A stretch of DNA of 64,000 nt from a virus, in IMG/VR virus record IMGVR_UViG_3300030103_003629, positions 32,462 through 96,461 of that record. One strand, given 5' to 3'. Each line of letters opens with the position of its first letter. Within the stretch, counting starts at the first letter, position 1. The translations under genes and the position numbers were made by a program. Positions 4,469-53,121 of the stretch are shown here, piece by piece. The notes beneath the pieces are model-generated. The model was not told the DNA's origin. It saw only the letters and a list, made by a program, of their open reading frames with translations, and made no database searches.

Positions 4469-7400
4469 CTACTTTTTCTGCATAATTGTAAGATACTCTG
4501 AGTTCTTAATTGCATTTCGTGCGTATGTGTCTCTTCTTTTTTCATCACTATCTCCACCAGCCCATTCTCTTGGTAAAGTATCAGGTATATCTGAAACTTT
4601 CATTTTTTTACCTTTATTAGGTCCTGACCTAATTGCTCTAGTTTTATAGTAATAAGCTAAAATTGCTGCTGTTGCTTTAGCTGCATTTTTAGGATCCATA
4701 AAGTCTCTATTACTTGTTATTCCAATTGCTGCTAATTTATCTTTTAATGAACCTTTCTTTCCTTTTTTACGGTATAATTCATCATCATCCTCAACCCATT
4801 TCCATCTAAATTGTGTAAGACCAACACTATTAGAATTTCCTCTTACTTTATAGGTATTATATTTAGATTTATAATCAGGACTACTGGTACTACCCAAATC
4901 AAATTTTTTAGATGCCCATTTTCTACCTGCTCTGAAAAGATTTGATGAAGCTTCATGAGTATCTCCAAAGTTACTTTCATTACCAAATATACCAAATGTA
5001 ATTTTAGCAATTTCATTATACTCATCACCACTTACACCCATAACTCTCATAACCTCTTTTTTACTATTTTCTAATGATTCTATAAAAGGTAATACAGTTT
5101 GATTATATTCTACATTATCATCAATATCAGTAGAAGTAAACTGATTATCTATAAATCTTTTTTGATCAAACTTAAATTTAATTGGTTTAGCACCATCAAC
5201 TCTTTTTTCTCTAGGTGTTCTATTAACTTTAGCATTACCACTTTTAAAAATTAATTGACCATCTTCATATACAAATTTGTTTTTATTTTCTTTTATGGTG
5301 TTTCCTTTTTCATCTTTATATACTTCAGGTAAAACAAATACTTCAGTTCCTGAACCAACATTATAATCGTTTTTCATTTTGTTTAGATCTGAACATACAC
5401 CATTAATACAACCATAACTCATTCTGTTATCATCTAGATCTGCATTACCAAATTTATCTCTTCTGCTTTTCGGAGCCCTATGAATTGCAGTAGGTATTTT
5501 TATACCTCTATCATTTACCATTGTAAAAGAAGGAGCATTTAAATATTCATATACATTATCAATAGTATATTTACCAGCTCCAGTTTGTTTATTACCAAGA
5601 TTTCTGTCTTTTTCTACACTTATTGTTTGCTCATCACCCTTAAACATTCCTGTTCCTACTTCAAATGAATCAATTAGTTTATTACCTCTATAAAGATGCA
5701 TTCTTTGATGCTCTTTATCTACAATCATATATTGCTTATTAGGATCTTTATTTGTTTGATAATTTATTATAAGATTTGATTGATCCATCTTATTCATATC
5801 ATTTTTATGTTTCTTAAGATCTTTAAAATTTTCATATCCTGAAAAGTCTACTTGTTTAATATTAGTATAAGGACTATCAGAAAGTTCACTGTAAGCATTT
5901 TTTAATGGTGTAAATACATTATCATCAATACCTTTTTTTATTTCTTCATATGTGTTTTTAGCTTGATCTATTTGTCTAGCAAATTCACCTTCAGAAACAT
6001 CTCCTATTACCTCATAATTTTCTAATTCTTTTTCCTTTTTCTTTTCTAGTCTTCTCATAGCTTCATAAGGAACAGGAGGTGAATACGGAGCAGCTTCTCC
6101 AAACTTAGATTTAAGAGGACTAGGGTACTTAGCAGCTTCATTATAATATTCTTGTACTATTTGTTCATCACTTTTTTTCTTTGGTATATCTAAATATTTT
6201 TTCTGACTTTCCATTAATTGTAATTGATCAGCAAGTTCTTGATCTTTAGCAATCTGATCTTGTTTACTAAAGTTCATGCTAAGTCTATTTGATAAGTTTT
6301 GAGCATCCTCATCTTCAGCTGGTACATTATTTTGCTGTCTTAATAAATTAAGCATGTCTTGTTCATAATCACCAGTTGAATCTGGGAAACCAAAATTTGA
6401 TGGAGGTTGTTGACTTTGAATTTGTTTTTGAACTTCTTCTCCTATTAATCTTTCTCTTTCTTTTTCCTCATCACTTCTAAGATCAAATTGTATACCTGTT
6501 GTTCTAGGTTTAAAAAATTCTTTAAAATTTTCATCAACAGATTTAGAAGGATCATATGCAGATTTTCTTATAGCGGGTGAATCTAATTTAAGCTTTCTAG
6601 GTTTATAATTTGCCGCAATTTTTGTAAATGCAAATGGACTATAATCAGGCTTTCCTAGATTAATATTACCAAATATATTAGATTGTTTAGGATATCTTCT
6701 TTCTCTTCTAGTTCTTCTTCTTTCTTTTTCAGCTAGCATTTCAAATGCTTTAGGACTTAAGTCATCTAAGCTTATTTTTCCTTTACGATATTTGTATAGT
6801 TCTCTATCTTCAGAAGTTACTTTTATTTCAGGTTGATTTAAAAGTACATTTTCTTCTTCTGAAAGTTCTTCTCCATATATTTTAGATTTAATTGAAGCTA
6901 AAGGTTTGCCTTTTGCTGTTACCCAATTATCAGCTCCAGATTTTTTTGTAAAATATTTATCACCTTCTTTTTTATAATCCCAACCTCTTTCAGATATAAC
7001 ACCACCATCTTGATATTCAGGTATCTCTTCTACTATATATCCACCAGCTGCGTATTCTTTAATTTCTTCATCACTTAACTCAGCTTCTATATAGCCACCT
7101 TCTTCAAGTCTATATGCTCTTTTAAACCTTCTATTGCTTTTAGGTTGACCAAAAATATTTTTATTACCTGCTCTTACTTTACGAGTTTTAATATTTTTTT
7201 GTTTACCGTCTTGTTTACCTTTTCTTTCTTGTTGTCTAAGTTCTCTACGAGTATATCCTTCTTCTTCTGGAAAATTATAATCTTTTAAAATTAATTCAGA
7301 TTGATTTATAGGAATCACTTGAGGATCTAAAGTTTCCATTTGTGGAATAGTCATATCTTCAAATGTAAGTTCTTCTTGAACGGGTGTTCTTCCTGCATAG

Positions 7401-8980: not shown

Positions 8981-11900
8981 TATCTTTGAGATAGTTGAGT
9001 TTTAGTATTAACCATTTTAATAATCATATTAACTGGCCCTGATATATTTCTTTTTAAACTTATAAAGTTAGCATAATGTCTGAATCTTTTACGCTGTTCT
9101 CTTGGTTTTTGATAATCAATATTTGTAGCATTAAGCTCTCTTACATATCCATTTGGTTTAGTTAACCATATATGTCTTTCATTATAATTACCATTTAATA
9201 CAGTACTTCCTGGGATTACAGGAGCTGTTGGAGGATAACCTGCACCTATAGGAAACTCTCCTCTATCTTTAGTAATATCCCAGAATTGATTAAATCTATA
9301 TTTCTGTTCTTCTTTTGAGAATAGTATATCATATGAAGGATTAGCTACATTATACTTTGGATACTCTAAAGATAACGGTAAGTTATTTTTTGGCATTAAG
9401 TTTAAGTTTAATAAACCGGATACTTGCTCTGAATTATAAATCACAGCTTCATCAAAGTTAAAGTCTAATACATGAAACTGATCAAAACAATTATACTCTG
9501 CTCTTTTATAAGACTCTAATAAATATTCTACACTTTTTAATGTTCCTACATTTTGACCTGTAGATGCAACTAACTCTATTTCAAATGGATAGTTCTTACC
9601 ATAGTATTTACAATAGTCATTACAAACATTATTATGCTTCCATAACTGATTTCTTTTTGTAGTTACCCAAGTATTCTTTCCAGGCATCATTAAATCTGGA
9701 TGCCAATCATGGAAAGAAATAAACATCTTACTCTTAGGATCAAAGCTTATGGTCCATGAAGCATCATCAAAAATATTAGGATCTCCAAGTTTAAATTTAC
9801 CTGCTCTCCTGTCTTTTATTATAAACACATCTTTTGCAGAATCATAAGTAACTTGTCCAGTAAATTCTGGTTTAAGCTTATAGTCCTTCTTAGAAAAGTA
9901 TAAAAGTAAATTATCATTATCATATAATGTTTGACAACCAATGCCGCATATTGGATTATTAGTATAAGGATAATCTGGAAAATCTTGTAATAGCTGATAA
10001 GGTAAATAAGTATCAAACCACCATTTCATTCCATTCTGTGATATCTCATTTAATCCACTAGCATAAGAAAATATCTTACCTTGGTTTTGAGATATATAAA
10101 AGAATCCTGCTGGTGTAGATAATATAGATTTAGAATCTTGACAAGACCCGTATTCAAATGGTGCAGCTGCTACAGATATATTTTGAGGTGGTTGAGCAAA
10201 AAGTCCTCCATCTCCAATTGTAAGTTCTGTATTAGCATCAGTAGTAATAGTATCTACTCCTCTATATATTATTGGACTCTGATCATGGAAAGTAATAAAC
10301 ATACCACTTTTAGCAAAAGATTTAACACCACTAATTGTAGCCTTCATATCTTTATAGTTATTAACTAAGTATACTTTCCATGCATCTTTATATGAAGCAT
10401 CCTGCTGAGGTAATGAATAAATAATTCTATTTGGATAAGATTCATAACATAACTTAGCTATATCTGGATCATAGTTTCTATTCTGCAAGTTTCCTTGTGA
10501 AAAGTACTGAGTCCAAGCTTTTGAAATACTTAATGAATAATCATATAAGTAAGTATTATCTCTTGTTATAATTTGAGGATCCATATTGAACATACTTCTA
10601 TAATCAGTATATCTATATGGATCATAATGTTTTTCTGCAATATTGTTAGTTGTTTCTCTAAAGTCAACTAATACATCACTTTCTACAAAAAAGTCTCTTA
10701 TTGAAGATACTGATAAATAAAAGAAGGCATCTTTAACAGTAAATAATCCAGGACTATCTCCCTCCATTGAAGCAGTAGCATAATTATATTTACTACTAGA
10801 ATTTTTAAAATAATCAAGTTCATAAAAACCGCTAGGAAGCGCACCTGTTCCTGGAGTACTAATACCAAAAAGATTTGTAGGCATTAAATTAAATGCTTCA
10901 TAACTAGTACTATTAGCCCAGAACTTAGGTTCATGAATCATTTGATATAATTTATAGTTATACTCAAATCCATCAGGTTGACCATATAACCAATCATAGA
11001 AAAAGAACATATTATTCTTTTCTGTATATCTATTTATAAAAGTATCTCCTCCAAATAGAACAGGAGTATTAGGTATTACATTTAGAAATAAAGGATTAGG
11101 ATCATCAGTACCACATATTGGACCTTCTGGAGAAAGTCTAAAATCTTTTTGTTCACAAGGTGTTATTGGTATTTGTTTAACAGAATTAAGCTGTCCATAT
11201 TGATTTTGTAATCTATATTTTAAACCTCCGTAATAACTTCCTATAGGTAAACTAAATGCATTTTCTTGAGGATCATCCATAGTTGGTAATGCTCCACTAG
11301 GTGAACCAGAAGGTGCACCAAATTGTTCTAGAGCTCCTAAAGTGGTTAATGAAAAATCTTCACCATCTAATAATTTAGGTCCAGTAAATTGTAATGCAGA
11401 AGGATGTCCGTAAGGACCTGTTTTAGTTCTTAAAGTTACATGACTGTTTCTTTTAAGATTATTTATTTTATATGATACACTACCTGATGCATTCTGATAT
11501 AAAGGTACATCTTGAAAAGTATTCTTAGTATAAAAACTATCTTCTATTTTAAATCTAGAAGTACTAGAAGTTTTTACAGCTTCCATATTATCATATAAAC
11601 CATGACACTTCATTTGAAGAGCGTATTGTCTAAATGGTGTAAGTGCTTTTATAAGTTTTGCAGTAACATCAGCACCTTCTGAAAAATAAAATGTTAAATG
11701 ATTTAAAGCACCTAAAGTTCTATTAAAAGGATCTAAATATGCATACTTAGGAAGTTCTACAGTATATAAGCTAGCTATTTGAGATTGACCAAGTTTTTTA
11801 GCATTTTGATTAAAAAACTTTATTAATGCTTTATTATATTTTGCAGCTTCTGTTCCTTCATATCCACTAATTAAAGCTTTAGCACCATCAAGCATAGCAC

Positions 11901-48782: not shown

Positions 48783-48800
48783 AGACCTCTCTTAATTTAT
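48783..48800 (+). promoter_or_regulatory. Early promoter-like repeat P3
   Basis: AGACCTCTCTTAATTTAT, 15 of 18 bases as in P1; no gene follows before P4, only a structured RNA. Confidence 0.55.
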
Positions 48801-48804
48801 ATTG

Positions 48805-48896
48805 AGTAGTCCTAAGTCAATAAGTGGTGTGCATAATTAATATATCCCACATCTAAAGTTAATTGCATGTAGTAATGATTAGGTCTACTTTTTTTT
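48805..48896 (+). ncRNA. Candidate small RNA 1 (P3 transcript)
   Basis: AGTAGTCCTAA (48805-48815) pairs with TTAGGTCTACT (48879-48889) with a single mismatch, and the second strand is immediately followed by eight T. Inside, TAATTAA and TTAATTGC can form a second helix near 48832-48866. There is no ORF of any length with a good start. A transcript of about 95 bases would begin near P3 and end at the T-run. Confidence 0.55.
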
Positions 48897-48899
48897 GGA

Positions 48900-48917
48900 A
48901 GACCTCTCTTAATTGAT
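48900..48917 (+). promoter_or_regulatory. Early promoter-like repeat P4
   Basis: AGACCTCTCTTAATTGAT, 17 of 18 bases as in P1, 3 bases after the T-run of small RNA 1. Confidence 0.55.
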
Positions 48918-48920
48918 ATG

Positions 48921-48961
48921 AGTCAATCTACAGGTGATAGCGTAGGTTTACTATTTTTTTT
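48921..48961 (+). ncRNA. Mini-transcript or attenuator behind P4
   Basis: AGTCAATCTAC pairs with GTAGGTTTACT (one mismatch, one G-U), followed by A and eight T. It begins immediately downstream of P4, so transcripts from P4 could end after about 40 bases. The helix has the same form as in small RNA 1. Confidence 0.5.
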
Positions 48962-48990
48962 CAACCAACTTGGGGAGCATATATGCCCGT

Positions 48991-49006
48991 TTGCGCAAAG
49001 GCGCAA
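48991..49006 (+). repeat. Perfect GC-rich hairpin
   Basis: TTGCGC-AAAG-GCGCAA, a 6-bp perfect stem without a following T-run, just upstream of repeat P5. It is preceded by a palindrome GCATATATGC (48977-48986). Not a terminator; possibly an RNA or protein-binding site. Confidence 0.5.
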
Positions 49007-49040
49007 GAGACTAAAAATTTTATTCTAAAATTTGGCTTTT

Positions 49041-49058
49041 AGACATCTCTTAATTGAT
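49041..49058 (+). promoter_or_regulatory. Early promoter-like repeat P5
   Basis: AGACATCTCTTAATTGAT, preceded by TATTCTAAAATTTGGCTTTT; that upstream block is shared with P6 and not with P1-P4. The ATG of the next gene is 30 bases downstream. Confidence 0.6.
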
Positions 49059-49088
49059 AGGAATTATTAATCATTTAAATTTACAATT

Positions 49089-49457
49089 ATGGCAAAGCCT
49101 AAATTTGAAAGCGTTACTTTAAGTAACGGCACACCCGCTAAAGTAGCGCAGGTATCAGCAGAGTTAATCTCAATTAATGAGAATGACGTTTATGAAAACA
49201 AGAATGGTACTCAGTACCGCCTTTGTACAATCAAGTTTGATAACGGTAATAAAGTTATGACTCCTGGTGCAATGATGTATGAGAGTAACTACCAAAAAGG
49301 CGTTACTGTCGGTAGCCATTATCTTGCAGAAATCACATTAACTGCTGATAATGACCCGCTATTTATTTGCTCTGCATTGTCTCAAAGACAGTCAGTATCT
49401 AACAGTGACTTTGATGTAGAAGTTACTGCAGCTGATTTCTCTGAAGCAGGCAAATAA
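49089..49457 (+). CDS. Early protein with OB-fold-like pattern (122 residues)
   Basis: MAKPKFESVTLSNGTPAKVAQVSAELISINENDVYENKNGTQYRLCTIKFDNG, then VTPGAMMYESNYQ and a GSHYLAEITL strand; the alternating beta pattern and length suit an OB-fold. The acidic end DFDVEVTAADFSEAGK is like the tails of ssDNA-binding proteins, but no aromatic DNA-binding pattern is certain. It is the only gene between P5 and its terminator, and its codons are more GC-rich, suggesting strong early expression. A nucleic-acid-binding role is inferred. Confidence 0.6.
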   Translation: MAKPKFESVTLSNGTPAKVAQVSAELISINENDVYENKNGTQYRLCTIKFDNGNKVMTPGAMMYESNYQKGVTVGSHYLAEITLTADNDPLFICSALSQRQSVSNSDFDVEVTAADFSEAGK

Positions 49458-49469
49458 ACCTACACACAA

Positions 49470-49497
49470 AAGACAGACTAATACTCTGTCTTTTTTT
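49470..49497 (+). terminator. Terminator of the P5 cassette
   Basis: AAGACAG pairs with CTGTCTT (7 bp), followed by T6, 13 bases after the stop codon. Confidence 0.85.
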
Positions 49498-49538
49498 CTG
49501 CCTTAGAAAAATTCTTTATTCTAAAGAATTTGGCTTGA

Positions 49539-49556
49539 AGACATCTCTGAATTGAT
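49539..49556 (+). promoter_or_regulatory. Early promoter-like repeat P6
   Basis: AGACATCTCTGAATTGAT with the P5-like block TATTCTAAAGAATTTGGCTTG upstream (a one-base pause apart). No gene follows for 160 bases; instead the structured RNA region begins. Confidence 0.6.
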
Positions 49557-49569
49557 TGTGTGTAGGTAG

Positions 49570-49660
49570 TGTTAACGGTTTTATAATAAAACACGCAAGA
49601 GCTTAAAAGAACATGTAATATTTTACAAAGTTCTATAAACATTTGTGTGTTGTTAACACA
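49570..49660 (+). ncRNA. Structured leader after P6
   Basis: GTGTTAAC (49570-49577) pairs perfectly with GTTAACAC (49653-49660), enclosing about 75 bases without an ORF. It lies just downstream of P6 and upstream of a 32-residue membrane ORF. Could be a small RNA or a leader element. Confidence 0.4.
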
Positions 49661-49714
49661 GTAGGAGTCAAACAACCCTTCTTTCTTAGGCTTAAAGCTT
49701 AAAAAAGAATTGTT

Positions 49715-49813
49715 ATGGCTCATTATATATTATATATAGCTATTCTTTGGTTGACAATAGCTATTTGCCTACACACATTAGTCTATCTATCACTATATAC
49801 ATTACTTATATAA
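49715..49813 (+). CDS. 32-residue membrane microprotein
   Basis: MAHYILYIAILWLTIAICLH continues into a nearly all-hydrophobic single span. ATG in an AT-rich context (TTGTTATGG); TAA stop. Supported only by the start context and composition. Confidence 0.4.
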   Translation: MAHYILYIAILWLTIAICLHTLVYLSLYTLLI

Positions 49814-49860
49814 TCTCTTATAGTATGTTATAGAGTTTCATAGACTTATTCACCGGAATT

Positions 49861-49960
49861 ATACAACTACAAGGAGGAGCCAGCTTGACTGGAAAATCTG
49901 CTTTAAAACGCCTATCTAGATGAGGTAGCATCCTTGGTTTATATCTTAATGTAGTTGTAT
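49861..49960 (+). ncRNA. Structured RNA element 1
   Basis: ATACAACTAC (49861-49870) pairs perfectly over 10 bp with GTAGTTGTAT (49951-49960). Nested helices: AAGGA (49871-49875) with TCCTT (49931-49935), and CCAG-CTTGA-CTGG (49880-49892). A closed fold of 100 bases with no ORF. Confidence 0.5.
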
Positions 49961-50029
49961 ATTTAATAAGGTTAATCCATTAAGGGATTATTAAATGATA
50001 TCCGTATGTGAAGATGCCTTATTATTTAT

Positions 50030-50105
50030 TCAGTGTGTCAATAGATTGCACTCTATTATATTATTATTGTATTGTGGTTTTGCTACTTTCCCACACTGAT
50101 TGACA
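50030..50105 (+). ncRNA. Structured RNA element 2 with alternative helices
   Basis: TCAGTGTG (50030-50037) can pair with CACACTGA (50092-50099), or TGTCAAT (50036-50042) with ATTGACA (50099-50105). The two helices share bases and exclude each other, as in a switch. Confidence 0.45.
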
Positions 50106-50141
50106 AGGTTACTAGTACCTTTATAAGCAATCAGGAATAAA

Positions 50142-50167
50142 AGTAGTTTTATATATTTATAACTACT
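50142..50167 (+). repeat. Hairpin
   Basis: AGTAGTT pairs perfectly with AACTACT across a 12-base AT loop; no T-run. A second 7-bp hairpin, CTTTACA (50193-50199) with TGTAAAG (50220-50226), follows. Confidence 0.45.
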
Positions 50168-50268
50168 GTTTCGGTGTAGAGATGTATAGATTCTTTACAC
50201 ATGTAGGAGGGTCGGTGCCTGTAAAGTGCTGCAGCATAGGACAGGTGGGACGGTAGTTATATTATTAT

Positions 50269-50349
50269 TGGAGTGAGGGAGGACAGTTATACTTCGGTCA
50301 CTGACTGGATACACAAACCCTGCAGGTCTTAGCCGTGTACCTCACTCTA
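50269..50349 (+). ncRNA. Structured RNA element 3
   Basis: TGGAGTGAGG (50269-50278) pairs with CCTCACTCTA (50340-50349): 10 bp with one G-U. Inside are TACAC (50310-50314) with GTGTA (50335-50339) and a CCTGCAGG palindrome (50319-50326). It ends 27 bases before the next ATG. Confidence 0.5.
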
Positions 50350-50376
50350 TTAATTTAACAAATTAAATTAACACTT

Positions 50377-50532
50377 ATGAAACAAATTACGCATTACTTA
50401 TTTGCTGTACTCTTATTGGGTACATTTACTTCAGTATTTTCTTCCGGAGATTCATTCTCGCTTGGAAAGTCCTTAGTTATTTATGGATTTTGGGCGCTTA
50501 TGTTATCTCCTATGACAATTAAAAACGTTTAA
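50377..50532 (+). CDS. Small exported or membrane protein (51 residues)
   Basis: MKQITHYLFAVLLLGTFTSV, then SSGDSFSLGKSLVIYGFWALMLSPMTIKNV. The N-terminus has signal-peptide form (basic start, hydrophobic core, Ser-rich exit), and a second hydrophobic segment follows; either secreted with one anchor or a two-span membrane protein. AT-rich leader ACACTTATG. It lies between the structured RNA elements and a basic microprotein 5 bases downstream. No family. Confidence 0.5.
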   Translation: MKQITHYLFAVLLLGTFTSVFSSGDSFSLGKSLVIYGFWALMLSPMTIKNV

Positions 50533-50537
50533 CTATT

Positions 50538-50660
50538 ATGAAAAAGATTATAATTACTCAAAAAGAAATCCAGGACGCTATGAAACATAGAGTTCAAAGG
50601 AACAAAAAAAAGTATTACCGGAAGGTAAAACACAAAAGTGCTTCTAAAGAGGCACAATGA
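50538..50660 (+). CDS. Basic microprotein (40 residues)
   Basis: MKKIIITQKEIQDAMKHRVQ is followed by a run rich in Lys/Arg/Tyr (NKKKYYRKVKHKSASKEAQ). ATG at 50538, TGA at 50658-50660. It is 6 bases after the 51-residue gene, in the same transcript. The high charge suggests RNA binding, which would fit the surrounding RNA elements, but this is inference. Confidence 0.5.
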   Translation: MKKIIITQKEIQDAMKHRVQRNKKKYYRKVKHKSASKEAQ

Positions 50661-50667
50661 CATTTGG

Positions 50668-50748
50668 TGTTTATCTATAGCTTGCTATAGTATAAGCATC
50701 TCATGGCCTTATGGTCATGCGGTTGCTCTCAAACCGTTAAGATAAACC
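50668..50748 (+). ncRNA. tRNA-like RNA element
   Basis: GTTTATCT (50669-50676) pairs with AGATAAAC (50740-50747), 8 bp. Inside are three arms: CTATAG-CTTG-CTATAG (50675-50690), CATGGCC-TTAT-GGTCATG (50702-50719) and CGGTT-GCTCTCA-AACCG (50720-50736), the last with a tRNA-like 5-bp stem and 7-base loop. The first arm shares a base with the closing stem. It is not a canonical tRNA: the loop is not TTCRANYC, four bases separate the last arm from the closing stem, and no clear CCA follows. Confidence 0.5.
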
Positions 50749-50765
50749 AGTAATGGTATAAATCT

Positions 50766-50816
50766 GTAGTCGTCTTGGTAATAGACTACGGAGATATGTA
50801 TAGCTTGCTATATGTA
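50766..50816 (+). repeat. Hairpin pair with TAGCTTGCTA element
   Basis: GTAGTC (50766-50771) pairs with GACTAC (50784-50789); then GTATAGCTTGCTATATGTAT contains a TATAG-CTTG-CTATA hairpin. The TAGCTTGCTATA sequence also occurs in the tRNA-like element. Confidence 0.4.
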
Positions 50817-50827
50817 TTTTATAGAAG

Positions 50828-50949
50828 AGTATTCCAATATCCATGTAACGGCAGCAATAAATCCCACGGGTTTGTGAGTTGCATGGAGAGTATGACAGGC
50901 ATGCTCTTGAGCTTAAAAGGCAATAAGAATTGGGATAGATATTGGTACT
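50828..50949 (+). ncRNA. Structured RNA element 4 (multi-branched)
   Basis: AGTA + CCAATATC (50828-50841, two-base bulge) pairs with GATATTGG + TACT (50938-50949). Inside are CCATGTAAC (50841-50849) with GTTGCATGG (50877-50885), AAATCC (50860-50865) with GGGTTT, and AGAGTATG with CATGCTCT (about 50887-50906). Three helices meet in one junction. A 219-base ORF covers the segment, but its codons are not convincing. Confidence 0.45.
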
Positions 50950-51070
50950 ATGGTGTTGTCGCACTTAGAGCTGGTATTAGAATTTGTATTTAGAATGCTG
51001 TAAGAAATTACGTGTTCACATAAATATTCATTTAGTTAGTAGCTTTGACAAGCAAAAGCAGGTAGGAGTA

Positions 51071-51104
51071 GTAATCTAAACTTCCCAAAAGGAAGCATGA
51101 TTAC
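51071..51104 (+). repeat. Two-part hairpin
   Basis: GTAATC (51071-51076) pairs with GATTAC (51099-51104), enclosing CTTCC-CAAAA-GGAAG (51081-51095). No T-run. Outside it, GTTAGT (about 51034) can pair with ACTAAC (about 51129), giving a larger closed domain. Confidence 0.45.
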
Positions 51105-51214
51105 ATAAACTCTAAGCGCCTTCTATCACTAACCTGAAACCTTTTTAAGCCATTAGATTGGCAAAGTTTAATTTAAATATCAAGTAATAACTTAAAAGCA
51201 AAATTAGTTTAGAG

Positions 51215-51384
51215 ACTATTGTGATGCCATTAAAGGCAACAATGTTCTTATCCTTCTGCAATATGGAGGCATGGATAGCTCGCAAGGCTTGCCATGAAGG
51301 AATCCAGTAGTATCTGTAGTGAGGGGACACCCTCTTTAGCTCGTAAGGCATGCGGTATGAAAGTGAACTTATGTAAACAATAGT
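51215..51384 (+). ncRNA. Structured RNA element 5, with a repeated TAGCTCG unit
   Basis: ACTATTGT (51215-51222) pairs perfectly with ACAATAGT (51377-51384). Inside: TCCTTC (51251-51256) with GAAGGA (about 51296-51301); GAGGG-GACA-CCCTC (51321-51334); AAGT-GA-ACTT. Two similar units, TAGCTCGCAAGGCTTGCC and TAGCTCGTAAGGCATGCG (51276 and 51337), each followed by ATGAA(G/A)G, lie 61 bases apart. No ORF. Confidence 0.5.
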
Positions 51385-51479
51385 AGTGATGGCGGACATC
51401 TTAATCCGTGAACATGTACAGTACAAATTAGAAATAGTTTGTGTGAGATAGTTGGAGAAATCCTAATTAATCTGTACGT

Positions 51480-51508
51480 AAAAGGTCAAGCTCTCAGCCT
51501 TTTTTTTT
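51480..51508 (+). terminator. Possible terminator before the 3'-phosphatase gene
   Basis: AAAAGG pairs with CCTTTT over a 12-base loop and runs into nine T. The A-T-rich stem makes it weak. It would end the structured-RNA transcript or act as an attenuator for the phosphatase gene. Confidence 0.5.
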
Positions 51509-51555
51509 ATATCAGAACAATTATTAATCAATTAAAGTTAAAGACGCATAAGCTT

Positions 51556-52023
51556 ATGAAAAAAGAATTAGCAATTATTGTAGATGTTGACGGGACGTTA
51601 GCAGATATGAGAGGTATTAGAGGACCTTTTGAGTGGGACAAAGTTCACCTTGATAGACCCCATCAAGATATTATTGATCTTGTTAAAGATTTAGCATGTG
51701 TTGGATTTGATGCAGGTTTAGAAATACATCCAGATTTAGAATTTGAACCTAAATACAGTATTATCATTACTACAGGTAGAGATGGTGTTTGTGAAGCGGC
51801 AACAAAACAATGGTTGCATGATCATAAAGTACCTTATGATGATTTTTATATCAGAAAAGCAGGTGACTTTAGGAAAGATAACATCATTAAGTCTGAGATC
51901 TATATGGATCATATCAGACCTAAGTATGATGTTAAGTATGTCATTGATGACAGAGACCAGGTTGTTGAAATGTGGAGGTCATTAGGTTTACGGGTGTTAC
52001 AAGTAGCACCAGGAAACTTTTAA
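51556..52023 (+). CDS. Polynucleotide 3'-phosphatase (T4 Pnkp phosphatase-domain type, HAD superfamily)
   Basis: The frame opens at 51439, but ATG at 51556 (MKKELAIIVDVDGTLADMRG) is the clear start, with an AT-rich leader (AAGCTTATG). 155 residues. HAD motif I DVDGTLA (Asp nucleophile and Asp acid/base), motif II ITTGRDG, and motif IV VKYVIDDRDQVVEMWRSLGLRVLQVAPGNF match the C-terminal domain of T4 polynucleotide kinase-phosphatase. It removes 3' phosphates from DNA or RNA ends. The kinase domain is absent. It is surrounded by structured RNA elements, so a role in RNA repair or maturation is attractive but is inference. Confidence 0.8.
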   Translation: MKKELAIIVDVDGTLADMRGIRGPFEWDKVHLDRPHQDIIDLVKDLACVGFDAGLEIHPDLEFEPKYSIIITTGRDGVCEAATKQWLHDHKVPYDDFYIRKAGDFRKDNIIKSEIYMDHIRPKYDVKYVIDDRDQVVEMWRSLGLRVLQVAPGNF

Positions 52024-52025
52024 GG

Positions 52026-52152
52026 TGTTGAAGAGTGTAAGTCCAGACGTGGCAGTATCAACATAATAGAGAGTAAAACATTTGCGTACTCACTCTCTTC
52101 CTTAGATAATAGGAGTTGGCAGTAATCTCAGCGTAACAAAACTGCCATTTTT
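52026..52152 (+). ncRNA. Structured RNA element 6 with terminator
   Basis: Three consecutive helices begin 3 bases after the phosphatase stop: TGTTGA (52026-52031) with TCAACA (52058-52063), AGAGAGT (52068-52074) with ACTCTCT (52092-52098), and TGGCAGT (52117-52123) with ACTGCCA (52141-52147) followed by T5. The last is an intrinsic terminator. No ORF. It could be a 3'-UTR-derived small RNA. Confidence 0.6.
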
Positions 52153-52194
52153 ATCAAATTAAAAACAATTAATTAAACACTTAAACTATTACTT

Positions 52195-52548
52195 ATGAAA
52201 ACACTTACATTACTTATTTTTAAACTTATGTTATCTGCCGGAGTAGTTGTTCCTATGAATCAGGACAATGAAGGTAGAGAACTTTACGTAGTATTTCCTA
52301 ATGCTAACTCGGTAGCTTTTGATGGAATAGGATTAACTATTCTTGATCTACAAGAAGAAGGCTTACATGGTGCTACAGAAGAATACGGATTTAAATATCT
52401 TGATGAAGCTTTACGTCTGCAAGATGTATCTGATAATGATAGAGCATTTATGTATGAATACTGCTATAAAGGAGAGATATTAAATTGGATTCAGACACTG
52501 GAATTCTCATATAATGAGGCTTATCCTGATGATATAACTTCAAACTAA
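52195..52548 (+). CDS. Early protein, function unknown (117 residues)
   Basis: Starts MKTLTLLIFKLMLSAGVVVPM; the first 20 residues are hydrophobic and could be a signal or anchor. The rest is acidic (EGRELYVVFPNANSVAFDGIG; EILNWIQTLEFSYNEAYPD). AT-rich leader ACTTATG. No known family. It forms a two-gene unit with the next gene. Confidence 0.55.
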   Translation: MKTLTLLIFKLMLSAGVVVPMNQDNEGRELYVVFPNANSVAFDGIGLTILDLQEEGLHGATEEYGFKYLDEALRLQDVSDNDRAFMYEYCYKGEILNWIQTLEFSYNEAYPDDITSN

Positions 52549-52553
52549 TTATT

Positions 52554-52829
52554 ATGACATTAGAATTTATAGTATTCGGTATTATAGATAATCTTGTAAT
52601 GATTATTGGAGCAATGACAGGATATGAAGTGGAGAAGTATCTCCCTTCAAGATTCCAAAAAGGATTGGGCACCGTTATTGGTGCAGGTTTAGGTAACGCC
52701 ACAAGTGATTGGCTTGGTGGTGCAATAGCAGGTAACTTATGTTTAGCTAATGGTACAGCACTTGGTTGTATCATTGGTCTGTTATTCATACCTATCATAT
52801 TATTCATACAAAGACTTTTAAAGAACTAA
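52554..52829 (+). CDS. Membrane protein with glycine-zipper-like segment (91 residues)
   Basis: Segments LEFIVFGIIDNLVMIIGAM, GTVIGAGLGNATSDWLGGAIAG and CIIGLLFIPIILFI, the middle one Gly-rich as in pore- or zipper-forming helices, and a basic end QRLLKN. It starts 5 bases after the previous gene. A similar small Gly-rich protein type is found in crAss-like and other Bacteroidota phages. A holin-like or pore-forming activity is possible. Confidence 0.55.
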   Translation: MTLEFIVFGIIDNLVMIIGAMTGYEVEKYLPSRFQKGLGTVIGAGLGNATSDWLGGAIAGNLCLANGTALGCIIGLLFIPIILFIQRLLKN

Positions 52830-52834
52830 GGTCT

Positions 52835-52906
52835 AGGGCAGTGATTGTATACCGTGAAATTCGGAGGTTTAAATTACCCAAGCAGAAAACCTTTCATTGC
52901 CCTTTT
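52835..52906 (+). ncRNA. Structured RNA element 7 ending in an intrinsic terminator
   Basis: GGGCAGTGA (52835-52843) pairs with TCATTGCCC (52893-52901), 9 bp with one G-U, followed by T5. AGGTTT (52864-52869) with AAACCT (52886-52891) and CCG-TGAAATT-CGG form inner helices. It begins 6 bases after the stop of the 91-residue gene. Confidence 0.6.
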
Positions 52907-52920
52907 TAATTTATAAATAT

Positions 52921-53032
52921 TAAAGCAGGAGTCTTTGATCCGTTGAAGGTTACTTAGAGTTCTATAGTTGGCTAGCTATAAACTATAGTAATGCTCAGGC
53001 ACGTTAAAACTGGAGGTTAGATGACTGCTTTA
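52921..53032 (+). ncRNA. Structured RNA element 8
   Basis: TAAAGCAG (52921-52928) pairs perfectly with CTGCTTTA (53025-53032). Inside, CTATAGTT (52962-52969) pairs with AACTATAG (52981-52988) across GGCTAGCTATA. No ORF. Two further hairpins follow: TTCTTGT (53050-53056) with ACAAGAA (53064-53070), then the terminator at 53079. Confidence 0.55.
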
Positions 53033-53078
53033 TTAATACTAGTAAGCAATTCTTGTGCTTTAAACAAGAAAGGTTTTA

Positions 53079-53107
53079 ATACTTGTACCTGAACAAGTAT
53101 TTTTTTT
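53079..53107 (+). terminator. Strong terminator before the 78-residue gene
   Basis: ATACTTGT-ACCTGA-ACAAGTAT (8 bp) followed by seven or eight T. The next ATG is only 15 bases away, so the gene needs its own promoter or readthrough; TATCTTTA in the gap is close to TAnnTTTG. Confidence 0.8.
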
Positions 53108-53121
53108 ACTATCTTTACAAC

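Follow-up and report, generated by a model that had tools for sequence, protein, structure and literature searches.

Probable divergent GOLLD-class RNA with a conserved 5' domain in crAss-like phages

Introduction

GOLLD and ROOL are protein-free RNA cages larger than the ribosome and belong to the strangest natural RNAs. As seen by cryo-electron microscopy GOLLD is a cage of 14 RNA copies and no protein, which encloses a disordered linker that sometimes contains a tRNA, and both a ribosome pull-down and induction at lysis have been reported (PMC12286853). Here we analyse a stretch of 64 kb (the window, to which all coordinates without a contig name refer) of the 102,213-base virus record IMGVR_UViG_3300030103_003629, which has the layout of a crAss-like phage. 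An initial annotation had described positions 48783-53107 as an array of at least ten closed RNA structures that fit no known family. According to our analysis the region very likely contains, at about 50640-51503 (+), a single noncoding RNA that is a divergent form of the GOLLD class and belongs to a clade carried by crAss-like phages; a literature search found no paper linking GOLLD with crAss-like phages.

Results

The Rfam model of GOLLD (RF02032) aligns with 51061-51500 over its full length (model positions 1-416 of 416; 61.6 bits, E 1.1e-15) in a 471-base scan with lax filters. The first GOLLD match, likewise end to end, was obtained for L099, a divergent relative (E 5.5e-13), and among the 36 carrier records 17 align with model positions 1-416, with E values from 1.6e-8 to 1.8e-29. 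Moreover, the motifs follow one another in the same order as in GOLLD, i.e. a hairpin with a CAAAAG loop, AAAAGCAAAA before the multiloop, a hairpin with a CGCAA pentaloop and finally UCUCAGCCU, which is located at the terminator-like end of the RNA and is also found in the GOLLD consensus. If the GOLLD pairs are mapped through the window alignment onto 32 crassvirus sequences, 78.8% of the cells are paired and 70 of the 90 pairs covary, the slid control giving 40-45%. Thus, a known family, GOLLD, does fit 51061-51500, albeit below threshold, and by alignment of the relatives the RNA extends beyond this match to ~50640. For 52820-53110 a lax Rfam scan returned chance-level matches only, and here the absence of a known family stands.

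The stretches 50668-50748, 50828-50949 and 51215-51384, which had been listed as separate structures, form together with the intervening sequence one RNA:

50637-51503 (+): divergent GOLLD-class RNA, ~850-870 nucleotides (nt), delimited by the Rfam match of its 3' part, shared blocks and covariation

The loci compared first were those found via a gene for a 155-amino acid (aa) HAD protein, and the DNA of 50.64-51.51 kb is ~67% identical in phages in which the RNA is located ~7 kb from the HAD gene. A closer set of relatives was retrieved with the conserved word GGCGGACATCTTAATCCG, and the word GATAAACCAGNAATGGNATAAA led to 37 IMG/VR contigs, essentially all of them homologous according to a profile search; a relaxed word brought in L106/L142, L109, L116, L144 and L148. 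In total about 40 relatives are found in virus contigs. Blocks common to many of them reach from ~105 nt 5' of a signature hairpin (see below) to about +765, resulting in a unit of ~870 nt, the 5' end of which is approximate in the window as its own first ~100 nt have diverged, whereas the 3' end is given by a terminator-like stem and a T-run. Early pattern matches in L070, L071 and L073 were chance matches in coding DNA and were discarded, and blastn searches of INPHARED gave nothing convincing, whether the query was the window, a consensus or either of two divergent members.

This unity bears on the idea of a new array of ten or more separate small structured RNAs, such as decoys, tRNA mimics or translation regulators. 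Several small elements beyond the GOLLD block do fold better than shuffled sequences and two of them exhibit compensatory changes in relatives, but the main items constitute a single unit that keeps its order in about 40 phages and is connected by long-range pairs, its 3' half aligns with a single Rfam family over the full model length, and no tRNA was found. We therefore regard such an array as very improbable. The figure of at least ten closed structures is an overestimate, since several of them are parts of one RNA; the main ones belong to a single large RNA, whose class, GOLLD, is already known.

The consensus structure of a 32-sequence alignment of the giant RNA (A3) comprises 166 pairs, with 90.6% of the cells being standard pairs, compared with 67.6% in shuffled and 36-46% in slid controls; none of 500 shuffles was as high. 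In 137 of the 166 pairs both sides change, i.e. there is covariation support for the helices of the 50.64-51.50 kb block. As the A3 structure came from the alignment on which it was scored, a held-out test was made, in which the structure from 11 close relatives left 81.7% of the cells paired in 21 distant ones (43-63% identity), the slid control on the same 21 sequences giving 37-43%. From 5' to 3' the RNA is organised as follows:

50720-50736 (+): 5-bp hairpin directly 5' of the signature; 5/5 pairs covary, 92.5% of cells paired
50741-50762 (+): signature GATAAACCAGYAATGGKATAAA, an invariant CCA-GYAA-UGG hairpin with a GNRA-type tetraloop, from the IMG/VR pattern with 37 loci
50763-50818 (+): two covarying hairpins (helices 5 and 6), both sides changed in 10/10 and 6/6 pairs
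50830-50937 (+): three-way junction forming the 5' domain (helices 7, 8, 9, 12 and 14), 90-98% of cells paired
50938-50978 (+): 9-bp helix with inner hairpin (helix 15), 88.8% paired, both sides changed in 6/9 pairs
51061-51127 (+): GOLLD arm from the Rfam alignment, with a terminal hairpin carrying the conserved CAAAAG loop (51081-51095), 98.8% paired
51128-51206 (+): variable A/U-rich linker, from the Rfam alignment
51215-51384 (+): GOLLD multiloop with a closing 8-bp helix (51215-51222 / 51377-51384), from the Rfam structure mapped on the window
51242-51415 (+): pseudoknot helix (helix 24; 51242-51247 / 51410-51415) that crosses the multiloop helix
51270-51296 (+): hairpin whose conserved pentaloop, CGCAA, recurs in Rfam GOLLD (helices 26 and 27), 99% and 93% paired
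51416-51477 (+): helices 35-37 of the 3' domain
51480-51508 (+): terminator-like end AAAAGG...CUCUCAGCCUUUU plus T-run (helix 38), from the Rfam alignment

Nearly all pairs of the three-way-junction helices covary, and the six pairs of the pseudoknot are formed in 100% of the cells, i.e. in every spanning sequence, with 5/6 covarying. The signature hairpin, which probably makes a tertiary contact, owes its conservation in part to the search itself; essentially all 37 IMG/VR loci matched by the signature pattern are relatives. The block also contains open reading frames (ORFs) of some length, namely 93 aa at 51145-51426 (-) and 72 aa at 50775-50993 (+), which might suggest that it is protein-coding and that the structure is incidental. 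As the indels of the relatives are not in threes, compensatory pairs are present throughout and the longest stop-free run on the plus strand measures 79 codons in 787 nt, we assign a negligible probability to a coding function.

Several points weigh against a GOLLD-class RNA. The window's own copy was missed in the wider searches, i.e. GOLLD is absent from Rfam scans of the whole window at the gathering threshold and of 4.5 kb at E<=5, and all GOLLD scores, ranging from 32 to 103 bits, are far below the Rfam cut-off of 150 bits. Moreover, RF02032 spans the 3' region of GOLLD only, so that the 5' domain is not comparable with Rfam, pairing in the multiloop helix reaches only 63-71% in our alignment, and cage formation as well as any tRNA role are extrapolated from GOLLD. 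The 150-bit cut-off is a curation threshold and not a biological feature, and we thus file the RNA as a divergent variant rather than as a standard member. Sub-threshold scores, GOLLD-derived pairing that is weaker in places and a 5' domain with its own signature could also be expected of a new large RNA class that resembles GOLLD by convergence, without common descent; yet end-to-end matches to positions 1-416 in 17 records, with the motifs in the same order, make convergence very improbable. Taken together, these RNAs form a divergent GOLLD clade that is carried by crassviruses and shares a conserved 5' domain.

Each stretch was also folded against 200 dinucleotide shuffles to obtain a z value. 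Within the GOLLD block z is -4.3 (50668-50748), -3.2 (50828-50949) and -1.3 (51215-51384). Seven of the nine stretches named in the initial annotation fold better than shuffled sequence, with z from -1.6 to -4.3, 51215-51384 and 50269-50349 being unconvincing, and there is no folding signal over shuffles in 48783-48965. The mean z is -1.09 in the island, i.e. the structured region, which falls within the initial 5 kb of the plus-strand genes, -0.89 in the coding DNA next to it and roughly -0.3 to -0.4 in other parts; as the island exceeds coding DNA only modestly, thermodynamics alone is suggestive only. Thus, the description of a folded, non-coding, phage-borne region holds, and the helices are found where they had been placed, although several z values are weak. 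The supposedly tRNA-like stretch 50668-50748 corresponds to the hairpins at the 5' end of the GOLLD-like RNA and contains no tRNA according to ARAGORN, which finds 0 tRNA or tmRNA genes within the window.

In the window the minus strand encodes terminase (PHROG 6681), portal (PHROG 6547) and major head protein (PHROG 11589), the strand switches at ~47.7-48.0 kb, and small plus-strand genes are located beyond. A crAss-type TerL is present in 25 of 35 carrier contigs and a crAss-type portal in 23 of 35, and the lineage of the carriers is broad, as the identity of their major head proteins runs from 88% down to no detectable similarity. Where a locus is long enough to include the switch, the giant RNA is mostly found on the strand that points away from the structural genes, ~1.5-4 kb past the switch. 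Searching 84,980 bacterial and archaeal genomes (GTDB) for the signature gave two matches, both due to chance as judged by their context, and the GOLLD model found no match in nine named crassviruses (crAss001, phi14:2 etc.), in a search whose first look scored no candidates and which is too insensitive to indicate absence. One cultured crassvirus, PhiCrAssBcn9 (OQ221544), carries a gene for a TROVE-domain (Ro60-like RNA-binding) protein at 21-1439.

Genes for tRNAs are present in several carriers, and in two of them a tRNA-Asn(AUU) is located within the GOLLD linker itself, i.e. at L099:10519-10594 (-), where it falls inside the GOLLD match, and at L148:243-317 (-), as identified by ARAGORN; the anticodon AUU of this tRNA is unusual. 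The terminase of L099 contains in-frame TAG codons and L148 has a tRNA with the anticodon CUA, so that both look TAG-recoded. The linker of L081:1-775 (-) includes GGGTTCGACTCCC, which resembles a lone T-arm and is possibly the relic of a linker tRNA. The contig L095 contains a Hatchet ribozyme above the Rfam cut-off at 9177-9379, ~750 nt upstream of its GOLLD-like RNA; in the window genome the Hatchet model (RF02678) has no match in the island, only one of E 0.57 elsewhere.

The slot of the giant RNA is bordered by two genes:

50538-50660 (+): highly basic ORF of 40 aa that contains NKKKYYRKVKHK and adjoins the giant RNA
51556-52023 (+): gene with a polynucleotide kinase 3'-phosphatase (PNKP, HAD) domain (PHROG 505 polynucleotide kinase, E 8e-54), the right flank of the slot

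In many carriers relatives of the tiny, very basic ORF, with the motif NKKKYxRKxKHK, lie close to the giant RNA, either upstream or downstream, and one may speculate that the small basic protein is a partner of the RNA. They also occur upstream of another RNA, termed RNA Y, in L004 and L009. L004 is a sister phage with the flanks of the window, the left ORF (50534-50654) being 86% and the right gene (51549-52147) 92% identical at the DNA level, but with a different noncoding stretch between them, L004:4867-5443, which is related to L009:6261-6831 (86%). Three further contigs carry RNA Y, resulting in five members of ~580 nt that are 77-87% identical:

L004:4849-5499, RNA Y
L009:6237-6904, RNA Y
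L164:448-1118, RNA Y
L166:483-1150, RNA Y
L168:119-776, RNA Y

In these five sequences 95.4% of the consensus pairs hold and 49 covary, compared with at most 45.6% and 10 covarying pairs in the slid control, and it is well supported that RNA Y is a real structured RNA. It has no Rfam match (E<=5) and no GOLLD match, profiles of RNA Y and of the GOLLD alignment match in neither direction, and its records gave no ROOL match in a search whose first look was insensitive. Within the sensitivity of blastn, Y carriers are free of the window-type RNA and GOLLD carriers are free of Y. L163, L167 and L170 share little with RNA Y beyond the search word and were left out. L004 also has a noncoding insert of ~170 nt after its PNKP gene (6070-6240) that is not found in the window and ends with a GGGTAG..CTACCCC hairpin and a T-run.

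Around the GOLLD the island contains small elements, which are separate from it and some of which are terminator-like 3' stem-loops:

49861-49960 (+): S1, 11-bp closing stem and conserved core CTGGAAAATCTGCTTTAAAACG, z -2.25
50030-50105 (+): hairpin S2, z -2.1, partly kept in L004
50160-50260 (+): S3, three-way-junction element with a 13-bp stem, z -4.1
50269-50349 (+): S4, 10-bp stem-loop, z -1.2 and thus not beyond shuffles
52026-52152 (+): element 3' of the PNKP gene with a terminal TGGCAG..CTGCCA hairpin and T-run, z -1.6
52835-52912 (+): stem-loop S7 (52835-52906) plus T-run, invariant 20-nt core TGTATACCGTGAAATTCGGAG, z -2.4
52921-53032 (+): S8, 8-bp closed stem-loop, z -2.9

S1 has counterparts in L096, where it is also upstream of GOLLD, and in L158, and their closing stems carry compensatory changes; the outer stem of S7 shows such changes across four further contigs. 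Support for the other elements is weak or comes from single sequences. The 3' half of S3 is 88% kept in L004, which is thin support; the relative of S4 in L005 is uninformative as it is 100% identical; the terminator-like 3' hairpin of 52026-52152 is 98% kept in L007, directly after the same gene; and S8 has neither detected relatives nor an Rfam family. Between small genes, and in several cases immediately 3' of a T-run, AGACCTCTCTTAATTGAT is found in six copies (48003, 48497, 48783, 48900, 49041 and 49539, all (+); 0.2 expected), and this repeat looks like a phage promoter.

Discussion

By homology to GOLLD the giant RNA would fold and assemble, with no protein involved, into a hollow homo-oligomeric cage that encloses its linker, and would be made during infection, with the protection of tRNAs or ribosomes during takeover as the most likely, extrapolated, role. 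The linker tRNAs, the tRNA clusters and the nearby gene for a PNKP 3'-phosphatase point weakly to a function in tRNA or ribosome handling.

The findings place a deep GOLLD clade, concealed beneath the Rfam cut-off, at a recurrent genome position in crAss-like phages. In the sister phage L004 this slot is occupied not by GOLLD but by a structured RNA unrelated to it, which amounts to a natural swap experiment. We tentatively consider it possible, if rather doubtful, that crassviruses reserve one genomic slot for giant RNAs that form cages, with unrelated RNAs able to occupy it, and that RNA Y is a new giant class that does the job of GOLLD. If Y forms cages as well, the function would have to depend on the cage rather than on the sequence.

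Among the known large RNAs OLE shares with the giant RNA only that it is a large, ornate noncoding RNA, and the Rfam scans of the region gave no OLE match. ROOL (RF03087) is closer in that it is large, ornate, phage-borne and cage-forming (PMC12286853), but the window genome has no match to its model, at E <= 10 in a search whose first look was insensitive and whose control gave nothing. From GOLLD the crassvirus clade differs by the invariant signature of its 5' domain and by its occurrence, which in our data is confined to virus contigs, the majority with crAss-type terminase/portal. Nevertheless, the likeness to GOLLD is extensive, as it comprises the full-length match to the 416-position 3' model, a phage-borne location, a size of over 800 nt in both cases, a variable linker that may hold a tRNA, and tRNA genes near the RNA in several carriers.

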